A stretch of DNA of 64,000 nt, taken from NCBI RefSeq assembly GCF_009834565.1, contig NZ_CP019428.1:5518001-5582000 (forward strand), given 5' to 3'. The notes beneath the pieces are model-generated. The model was given only the letters and a program-made list of their open reading frames with translations, was not told where the DNA came from and did not search any database. The stretch is from Pseudomonas sp. R76 (lineage in GTDB: Bacteria; Pseudomonadota; Gammaproteobacteria; Pseudomonadales; Pseudomonadaceae). Positions 39,472-41,337 of the stretch are shown one piece after another; position 1 is the first letter of the stretch, and each line of letters opens with the position of its first letter. The translations under genes were made by a program, and so were the position numbers.

Positions 39472-39735
39472 TTACTTCTGTTCAGGCACCTCAAATAGAT
39501 CCAGCACCCGATCCACCATCAACTGGATACCCTCCAGCATCCGATGAATTCCCAGCACCGCATCACGCTGCGGGCCGTCGATGTCAAAAGCCAAGTTGCC
39601 CGCCAGTGCTTGTACTGATGCCAGGTCTTGGGAGGCGTTGGCGAGCAGGGTTTCGCTGTTCAGGTTGGGCAGTACAGTGAAAATATGGTCGGTAGATTGA
39701 GAATCAGATGGAGGATTGGGACTGTCTTTGATCAT
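39472..39735 (-). CDS. DUF6124 (formerly DUF3077) family protein, cut off from its leader
   Basis: Protein of 87 residues typical of a Pseudomonas family of unknown function, with a hydrophilic N-terminus and a C-terminal helix-rich part (LLANASQDLASVQALAG, MLEGIQLMVDRVLDLFE). The coding frame is intact. Its Shine-Dalgarno AGGAG (39743-39747) can pair in a short hairpin with 39758-39763. The promoter and structured leader that should precede it now lie beyond an IS481-family insertion, at 41062-41238, so expression is probably lost or altered. Confidence 0.88.
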   Translation of the reverse strand: MIKDSPNPPSDSQSTDHIFTVLPNLNSETLLANASQDLASVQALAGNLAFDIDGPQRDAVLGIHRMLEGIQLMVDRVLDLFEVPEQK

Positions 39736-39769
39736 GGTAAAACTCCTAACAAAAATGGGAGCTGGTATG

Positions 39770-41061
39770 ACTCACCCACATGGGTTACAAATCAGTTCAC
39801 GCACATAGGTAACAGTTTTTAACTGGCAGGGTCGATTTCGTGAGGATCTGACCATGCCCTGGAAAGAGCTGAAACCTATGGACCTCAAAGTGATGTTTGT
39901 CGCTGAATACCTGACTGGAAAACACAGCCTTAGTCAGCTATGTCGAGACTATGAAATCAGCCGAAAGACTGGCTATAAGTGGGTCGAGCGATACAAAACA
40001 GAAGGCCCCGGTGGGCTTGATGAGCGTAGTCGTCGTCGGCACCACCAGACTTATGTGGTGCCTTTGGCGGTAAAGCAGGCAATTATCGAACTTCGTTCTA
40101 TAGGCGAGACAATCCCTGGTCCGAAAAAAATCCAGAGTGATTTGATAAAGCGTTTTCCGGGCCAGGATCCGCCCTCGAAAACGACTATTTATAACATCCT
40201 TAAAGCGGCTGATCTGATCACGCCGCGCCCCTTGCGGCCAAGAGTTGCTGTCTATCCAAAACCGTTACGTAAGGCAGATGTGCCTAATCAGCTTTTCAGT
40301 GCTGACTACAAAGGCCAGTACCTGACAGGCGCGGGCGTATGGTGTTATCCGCTAACAATCATGGATCATGCCAGTCGCTTCTTACTTGCCTGTCAGAGCA
40401 TGCCCAGCACCAATTTCAAGGAGACCCAAGAGACGTTCGAACGGGTGTTTCGCGAGTATGGTTTGCCTGAGCGCATCCGTACTGACAACGGAGTGCCGTT
40501 TGCCAGCACAGGGCGCGGAGGGCTGTCACAGTTGTCGATCTGGTGGCTACGGCTGGGTATCATTCCTGAGCGTATCGAGCCCGGTCGGCCAGACCAAAAT
40601 GGCCGGCACGAGCGTATGCACCGAACACTGAAAAGCACTTTGCCCAATCCACCTGCGGTTGCTTGGGAGTCTCAGCAGAAACACTTTGATCGTTTCATAC
40701 GGCACTACAATTACGAGCGAGGGCATGAAGCGCTGAGCCAGAAAACACCGGCTTCATGCTATTCACCTTCACCTCGAGCCTATCCGGAGAAACTGCCGGA
40801 GATGGGTTATGCAAGTCATATTGAGTGTTACCGGACTGACTCAAACGGGATGATTTATCGGTCAGGTCTGCGGATTTATGTGGGGCATTTACTGAAATAC
40901 CAGACTATTGGAATGGAGATGCTGAGCGACGATGTGTGGGCTGTTATTTTCGGCCCAGTGATCCTCGGACAAGTGGATGCGAGGAATGCAGACAAGGACG
41001 GCTATATTTCACTCAAAGTGTTACCTATGTGAATGCACTTTTGTGTAACCCATGTGGTTGT
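39770..41061 (+). mobile_element. IS481-family insertion sequence
   Basis: About 1.29 kb with one transposase gene. Each end carries two nested inverted repeats: outer CCACATGGGTTACA (39776-39789) matched by 41044-41057, and inner CACATAGGTAACA (39802-39814) matched by 41019-41031. Outer and inner words resemble each other, as expected for paired transposase binding sites. The boundaries given here are those that restore the interrupted leader frame; no target-site duplication was seen, so the exact ends are uncertain by several bases. Confidence 0.85.
39854..41032 (+). CDS. IS481-family transposase
   Basis: Transposase of 392 residues. An N-terminal helix-turn-helix (about 10-60, SLSQLCRDYEISRKTGYKWV) is followed by a winged helix and an integrase catalytic core. 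The DDE residues are visible as D151 (FSADYKGQ), D211 (RTDNGVPF) and E253 (GRHERMHRTL). The frame is intact and its stop overlaps the inner right repeat, so the element may still be active. Confidence 0.93.
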   Translation: MPWKELKPMDLKVMFVAEYLTGKHSLSQLCRDYEISRKTGYKWVERYKTEGPGGLDERSRRRHHQTYVVPLAVKQAIIELRSIGETIPGPKKIQSDLIKRFPGQDPPSKTTIYNILKAADLITPRPLRPRVAVYPKPLRKADVPNQLFSADYKGQYLTGAGVWCYPLTIMDHASRFLLACQSMPSTNFKETQETFERVFREYGLPERIRTDNGVPFASTGRGGLSQLSIWWLRLGIIPERIEPGRPDQNGRHERMHRTLKSTLPNPPAVAWESQQKHFDRFIRHYNYERGHEALSQKTPASCYSPSPRAYPEKLPEMGYASHIECYRTDSNGMIYRSGLRIYVGHLLKYQTIGMEMLSDDVWAVIFGPVILGQVDARNADKDGYISLKVLPM

Positions 41062-41178
41062 CCCGTACAAGCTACCGACATCACTTGCAGATGATGGGTG
41101 GCAGCTGTGTACGGGCCTGCAAGACCGAGTTGTTAGGAACCCCGGCAGACCCGAGGATCTCCCGCACACAGCCACCAT
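41062..41178 (-). pseudogene. 5' part of a 46-codon leader frame of the DUF6124 gene, split by the IS
   Basis: From ATG at 41178 (MVAVCGRSSGLPGFL) 39 codons are open up to the IS edge. Joining base 41062 to 39769 adds seven codons (HTSSHFC) and a TAG at 39746-39748 that overlaps the DUF6124 Shine-Dalgarno. The frame also encodes the RNA helices: segment A (41161-41178), B (41097-41115) and C (41062-41076). B can pair with A or with C but not with both. Whether the peptide or the RNA structure is selected is unknown. Confidence 0.6.
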
Positions 41179-41209
41179 GACTCAATAACCGCTTTATGAA
41201 AGCGGCACG

Positions 41210-41238
41210 ATTATAGGTGTGCTGTTGAGTACTAACAA
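41210..41238 (-). promoter_or_regulatory. Orphaned promoter of the DUF6124 leader
   Basis: On the minus strand, -35 TTGTTA (41233-41238), a 17-base spacer and -10 TATAAT (41210-41215). A perfect hairpin (41189-41205, stem CCGCTTT/AAAGCGG) marks the very start of the transcript. It reads into the disrupted leader and then the IS. Confidence 0.8.
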
Positions 41239-41295
41239 ACTATCGGCGGGCTTGCAGTCCCGGTCGCCACATTGGCAGCGACCCGAGAAGATTAG

Positions 41296-41337
41296 TGAGG
41301 CCAGTTCCGAGGGACAACCTGAAAGGCCTGTGGGAAA
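41296..41337. repeat. 42-bp direct repeat, copy A
   Basis: Begins tgaggccagttccgagggac. The same 42 bases with one mismatch are at 42574-42615 in the same orientation, and weaker similarity extends 20 bases further left (both start cagcgacc). The two copies flank the nucleotidyltransferase pair. Confidence 0.9.

Follow-up and report, generated by a model that had tools for sequence, protein, structure and literature searches.

The DUF6124 gene in a 64,000-nt stretch of the Pseudomonas sp. R76 genome (hereafter the window, within which all feature coordinates are given, on the minus strand unless stated otherwise) appears to belong to a C4 antisense RNA unit of the type known from phage P1, now interrupted by an insertion sequence (IS). 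From the sequence comparisons set out below we consider this reading highly probable (about 0.85). The original prediction for this locus described a leader split by the IS and acting either through a translated short frame or as an RNA switch for a Pseudomonas family that is widespread and uncharacterised; the switch is supported, through the pairing and fold of a C4 RNA.

The C4 RNA and its pairing code

The antisense RNA is a match to Rfam RF01695 at 41182-41094 that scores 62.4 bits, above the gathering score of 45, and by eye a GGT after AU stands at the place where RNase P would be expected to cut, leaving a product of about 77 nt. Two of its segments, the loop b' (TCCTAACAA, 41130..41138) and a' (CTTGCAG, 41117..41123), have complements on both sides of the RNA. 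Read along the minus strand, the unit begins with a promoter-like TTGTCC-17-TAATCT (41289..41317), which may drive the unit and whose TAATCT lines up with CUAguCU in the a1b1 model of Rfam. There follow the c4-a1b1 element (41243..41295; RF03163, 34.6 bits, E 1.8e-6, gathering score 46.7), comprising a 5' hairpin and the a1 target CTGCAAG (41251..41257), then the b1 target TTGTTAG (41232..41238, a 7-nt complement of b'), a TATAAT (41210..41215), the C4 itself and a2 (CTGCAAG, 41084..41090), which is complementary to a' over 7 uninterrupted nucleotides. Beyond the IS (39764..41069) lie b2 (TTGTTAGGA, 39744..39752), which complements b' over 9 uninterrupted nucleotides and overlaps the Shine-Dalgarno (SD) motif AGGAG (39747-39743), and the gene for the 87-residue DUF6124 protein (39472..39735, ATG at 39735).

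The R76 genome contains 37 C4 matches, 36 of them over the threshold, and the window copy has the third lowest score. When 16 of the 37, hand-picked for diversity and including the window C4, were compared, 95.4% of cells were paired and 13 of the 27 pairs had changed on both sides; none of 500 shuffles scored as high, and slid structures dropped to 33-40%. All the double changes fall in stems one and two; in stem three only one side varies.

To measure how specifically each C4 matches its own leader we used the longest uninterrupted Watson-Crick run, core segments only, for the cognate leader against all other leaders, with 20,000 permutations. This covered 35 C4 units of the R76 genome (own units), two of the 37 matches being excluded because they have no gene of their own downstream. 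Mean cognate runs were 7.57 against 4.10 for b'/b2 (highest permutation mean 5.03), 7.03 against 4.10 for a'/a2 (5.11) and 7.00 against 4.38 for b'/b1 (5.23), each with p<=5e-5. For a'/a1 the figures were 6.91 against 4.58 (highest permutation mean 5.34) in a leader window of -110..-50; an earlier window of -130..-70 was misplaced and gave 5.03 against 4.44. Runs of 7 nt or more join b' to the cognate leader in 23 of the 35 units and occur in 27 of the 1190 non-cognate pairs, and the cognate leader is the sole best match in 20/35 cases for b' and 10/35 for a'. These counts indicate that a is a class code common to several units and that b is nearly private. The spacing is also regular, as the gene-start ATG lies 42-55 nt past the C4 in all 35 own units (the window unit taken as its empty site; the ATG at +42 that was taken for unit 5616670 is probably not its real start codon).

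Similar results were obtained in another Pseudomonas genome (G152), which has 43 C4 matches. Gene starts lie 45-55 nt after the C4 in 29 of the 30 loci examined, and in the 29 usable loci the cognate runs were 7.28 against 3.97 for b'/b2, 7.00 against 4.23 for a'/a2, 6.07 against 4.42 for b'/b1 and 7.21 against 4.87 for a'/a1 (each p<=5e-5). A further 15 units from other genomes, all sharing the CTGCAAG class code, gave 6.27 against 4.50 for b'/b2 (p=5e-5). Within the own units the 3' arm of the C4 also matches the leader just before the SD somewhat better than expected, both without wobble pairs (5.74 against 4.98, p<=5e-5) and with them (6.97 against 6.36, p<=2.5e-4). This hints weakly at a third contact, possibly an alternative stem; the same arm is also needed for the C4 stem.

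By analogy with P1 and P7, an intact unit would be read into a single transcript carrying the hairpin, a1, b1, C4, a2, b2 with the SD, and the gene, from which the C4 would be excised, probably by RNase P. Pairing of a' with a2 and of the b' loop with b2 over the SD would then shut off translation of the downstream gene, and the upstream a1 and b1, which could bind the same C4, may serve as a feedback site or as a decoy that frees the gene.

Several observations weigh against this interpretation. The a1b1 element of the window unit falls short of the Rfam gathering score, and 4 of the 24 DUF6124 domain matches in the R76 genome have no C4 match upstream. The cognate leader is the best or joint best in 27/35 units for b' and 28/35 for a', and so not in all of them, and the a'/a2 comparison is uninformative in the 15 units from other genomes because their code is shared (p=0.13). 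Ranking by duplex energy puts the cognate leader first in only 8/35 cases for b'/t2 and 5/35 for a'/t2; we attribute these low ranks to conserved GC-rich stem letters within the slices, which make duplex energy a poor measure here and are the reason why core-only run length was used. The permutations also ignore relatedness among paralogues, an effect expected to inflate the non-cognate runs and not the cognate ones.

The insertion, the leader frame and alternative explanations

Five other near-identical copies of the IS are present in the R76 genome, and comparison of their flanks places the ends of the window copy at 39764 and 41069, giving an element of 1306 bp on the plus strand with a transposase open reading frame (ORF) at 39854-41032 (+), terminal inverted repeats and an apparent 4-bp target duplication, AGCT, on both sides (41070..41073 and 39760..39763). 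The transposase scores 26 bits against Pfam LZ_Tnp_IS481 (threshold 22.2) and 209.4 against NCBIfam NF033577 (cut-off 224); we describe the element as IS481-like. The other five copies apparently all lie in one repeated element with near-identical flanks, one of them (L087) with an extra C in the left flank. The original prediction was right to place an IS between two halves of one leader, and its cut at 39770-41061 misses each end by 6-8 nt. The element parts the C4 and a2 from b2 and the DUF6124 gene; because the C4, the promoter-like sequences and a2 all remain on the far side, the gene presumably lacks its normal promoter, and since a2 has been split from b2 the C4 could reach DUF6124 only through b', in trans.

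One device named by the original prediction was a leader peptide, in which ribosomes on a short frame would open a hairpin between AGCTCC (39763-39758) and the GGAG of the SD and finish on the SD itself. The parts of this arrangement do exist at the empty site. As predicted, the frame runs from ATG 41178, which is the A-U-G at C4 positions 5-7, to a TAG (39748-39746) that overlaps the SD, its portion before the IS covering 41070..41178; it has 40 codons instead of the 46 first counted, because the IS ends have shifted and the 18 extra bases happened to be a multiple of three. AGCTCC is likewise able to pair with the SD, and across paralogues the signal for such a hairpin is weak (run 4.26 against 3.83, p=0.0065). 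A conserved leader peptide was rejected on comparing start, stop, frame and SD in 50 units, 35 own and 15 from other genomes. The codon at C4 positions 5-7 is ATG in 43, TTG or CTG in 2 and no NTG in 5; of the 45 NTG units, 12 have the stop of this frame inside the C4, 16 have it in the leader and 12 past the gene ATG, and 5 have none within the stretch read. Frame 0 is open through to the SD in 26 of the 50 units, against 13 for frame +1 and 26 for frame +2, and stops near the SD (between 20 nt upstream and 6 nt downstream of the A of the gene's start codon) number 9, 9 and 12 for the three frames. Since frame 0 is thus no more open than frame +2 and does not stop near the SD more often than the other frames, the window frame does not rise above chance and is no evidence of coding. 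An SD-like motif precedes the frame start in 3 of the 35 own units, two of which lack the ATG, and, depending on the unit, the gene ATG stands in any of the three frames relative to the C4 AUG. By the reasoning of the original prediction itself, homologues without the frame, or with a stop away from the SD, speak against a leader peptide, and 41 of the 50 units are of this kind. A translated leader that opens the SD is not supported as a conserved mechanism, and we regard it as very improbable for the window unit. Coupling of this kind may nevertheless exist in single units, as it has a precedent in Salmonella Gifsy-1, where, according to the available text of PMC4825925, a 45-residue orf45 is translated and was coupled experimentally to the downstream anrP; from the published coordinates we would place the AUG of orf45 at the C4 AUG. 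In one further unit with the same a code (L069) the frame is likewise 40 codons long and stops 13 nt short of the gene ATG.

It could also be argued that the C4 acts on targets elsewhere, as a trans-acting small RNA (sRNA) directed against phages or host messages, with the neighbouring gene being incidental. Such a role has been proposed for the C4-like group of 21 sequences in Acinetobacter baumannii (in the text available of Weiss et al. 2016, PMC5320573); it also fits the occurrence of C4 in four Pseudomonas phage records and the two tandem C4 copies in R76 that lack a gene of their own. We think it unlikely, as in two genomes b' and a' fit the leaders next to them far better than those of other units and the spacing between C4 and gene start is so regular in both. 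A separate question is whether the window unit is now a dead relic in decay, with expression of both C4 and DUF6124 lost since the IS arrived. This concerns only the present state of the locus and is compatible with its being an interrupted C4 unit. The cut between a2 and b2 and the low rank of the window C4 speak for decay; against it, none of C4, a1, b1, a2, b2 and the DUF6124 frame is damaged, their matches to one another persist, and the C4 retains two promoter-like sequences. On balance we see decay as a serious prospect, a little short of even odds.

Promoters, payload genes and distribution

The original prediction also included a strong promoter, TTGTTA-17-TATAAT, at 41238-41210. The sequence is present; its -35 half coincides with the b1 target, and no TATAAT before the C4 was seen in the other 34 of the 35 own units. 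By eye, 9 of the 15 units from other genomes show it again in the form CCTATAATC, and because of this recurrence the C4 of the window's subclass may carry a promoter of its own.

A run of five or more T residues lies between b1 and C4 in 18 of the 35 own units, many of these runs with stems and resembling terminators. Rfam isrK (RF01394) gives 18 matches in the R76 genome, 4 of them over gathering, of which 17 adjoin a C4 and one lies at a C4-less unit. This suggests that part of the units produce a short, IsrK-like leader RNA, possibly a decoy or an attenuator. The idea that C4 binding at b1 causes termination before the C4 was examined on the T-run units: forcing b1 to be unpaired raised predicted terminator pairing in 8 of the 18 T-run units and lowered it in 2, the mean moving from 0.59 to 0.67 (control 0.60). 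The result is not decisive and we treat attenuation as a lead; the window unit has no T-run of five.

The DUF6124 protein of the window scores 96.7 bits against PF19619 (gathering score 27). An AlphaFold2 model predicts a helical hairpin (H27-49 and H55-82) with a mean predicted local distance difference test score (pLDDT) of 83. No fold in the PDB matched it at E<=0.001 and no PDB sequence relative was found with E below 0.3; there was likewise no match in PADLOC or PHROGs at E<=0.1 or in NCBIfam at E<=0.01, and tblastn with the protein found no plasmid and one phage record. Of the 24 DUF6124 domain matches in the R76 genome 19 start 76-200 nt after a C4, and that of the window, behind the IS, is the twentieth. 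Three of the C4-less copies retain the promoter stretch together with the hairpin and a1 (by Rfam at 2047243 and 4832579, by eye at 5924980), and in the copy at 4252556 neither C4 nor promoter, hairpin or a1 was seen. By eye, a DUF6124 homologue in another genome (L078) keeps the promoter stretch and a1, with no C4 in the stretch read.

Other families occupy the same position. Among ten own-unit payloads scanned, two reached the cut-off for DUF3077 only, one for DUF3077 and DUF6124, one for DUF6124, two for Bro-N and four for none, and in sister units the DUF3077 payloads show weak cross-matches to DUF6124. One Bro-N payload, compared with PHROGs, matches phage anti-repressor Ant families, the payload class of the P1 C4. 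The N termini of payloads from R76, G152 and other genomes (DUF6124 and some DUF3077 and Bro-N proteins) begin in a common way, like MxKxxPxPP, as if leader and payload N terminus moved as one module. In four units (909485, 1604986, 5616670 and 3179325) a short ORF at the C4-controlled start, noted by eye, overlaps the next gene, an arrangement that recalls the coupling of orf45 to anrP. Two tandem C4 copies (2201610 and 2201705, the second below the gathering score) stand upstream of a complete unit without a gene of their own. Within the window, a second a1b1-like element (42573-42515; 36.9 bits, under the gathering score) with a similar promoter stretch directly precedes a DUF6036 nucleotidyltransferase gene (42485-41847), with no C4 match between them.

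Across 99 Pseudomonas genomes C4 was found in 92 and DUF6124 in 78. C4 was counted among at most 39 scored candidates per genome (eight genomes reach this number and hence have at least 39), and on this basis the median C4 count is 13 and the copy numbers of C4 and DUF6124 are correlated (Spearman 0.887). DUF6124 has a median of 5 and up to 43 copies per genome. C4 occurs without DUF6124 in 14 genomes, DUF6124 without C4 in none, and neither in 7. Of 115 genomes sampled across the order, 15 have C4, including R76, with 1-6 copies in the others. The Pseudomonas phages DVM-2008, vB_Pae_U10, phiAH14b and Phipami28 contain C4 at scores above gathering, which the feature tables examined do not label as C4, and two P. 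aeruginosa plasmid records also match.

Relation to known systems

The C4 of phages P1 and P7, its immI operon, the Ant antirepressor and processing by RNase P are described in the available text of PMC5320573, PMC8546580 and PMC12197685. The units reported here share with it (RF01695, RF03163) the fold, the a' and b' segments, the a1/b1 and a2/b2 pairs, and a b2 that covers the SD of the gene directly downstream. Other details of P1 used in this comparison are general background on that phage. The differences are that tens of copies with private codes stand in one genome, and that the window payload is a DUF6124 protein and not the Ant antirepressor of P1 immI. No phage family was matched by the flanking ORFs, the part of the window scanned for them.

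In A. baumannii, the C4-like Group 1 sRNAs form a large group within one genome, with variable recognition loops and RNA-seq profiles consistent with RNase P processing (PMC5320573, in the text available). The two cases are alike in the number of C4-like RNAs and in their variable loops; they differ in that the available text leaves the A. baumannii targets open, whereas in Pseudomonas the computed code makes the adjacent small gene the likely target. Weinberg et al. 2010 (PMC2864571) list C4 for Proteobacteria and phages, and Weiss et al. 2016 (PMC5320573) cite Pseudomonadales among those predictions.

A third relative is the isrK-orf45-anrP operon of Gifsy-1 (RF01394). As given in the available text of PMC4825925, positions 28 and 31 of the IsrK leader are paired with positions 162 and 159 of orf45, and IsrK is compared there with the SeqA/CI RNA of P4. 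From this we infer that isrK-orf45-anrP may itself be a C4 unit, with a1 pairing to a' and the orf45 AUG corresponding to the C4 AUG. As in the R76 units, a leader RNA, a processed RNA and an antirepressor-like gene share one transcript there, and a leader segment is complementary to the downstream RNA. The window unit differs in its isrK score (20.1 bits against a gathering score of 50), which places it outside that family, in lacking a T-run of five before the C4 and in its DUF6124 payload.

DUF6124 (PF19619), to which the window gene belongs, and DUF3077 (PF11275) are both Pfam entries of unknown function. A full-text literature search, with most subscription journals outside its reach, returned no paper on DUF6124 and, in the text available, a single one on DUF3077, concerning furfural-tolerant P. 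putida. No description of C4 units with either family was found in the same, mostly open literature, which is no proof of novelty. The kind of RNA is known; what we did not find described is its apparent Pseudomonas-wide spread as switches, each with a private code, for genes of the DUF6124, DUF3077 and Bro-N families, acting by a mechanism that is presumably that of P1.

A more speculative extension, which we consider possible and rather doubtful, is that Pseudomonas has domesticated the P1-type switch as a system spread over the genus, with up to tens of self-contained cassettes scattered in a genome. The private two-part address of each, made of the short class code a and the nearly unique b over the SD, would keep one small DUF6124, DUF3077 or Bro-N protein silent until the unit's C4 is titrated, for example by the unit's own a1/b1 leader RNA or by a matching target RNA of an incoming phage. 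If so, these genomes would hold an orthogonal antisense repertoire, possibly one that senses phages. The window unit is a natural split allele, with its C4 parted from its SD target. Taken together, the 64 antisense pairs computed in two genomes (35 and 29) may amount to a naturally occurring set of orthogonal translational switches. The results suggest for Pseudomonas an answer to the question raised in A. baumannii of what chromosomal C4 RNAs target, namely the adjacent leader, and through them DUF6124 and DUF3077, families without a known function that are multi-copy in a good part of Pseudomonas genomes, gain a regulatory identity.

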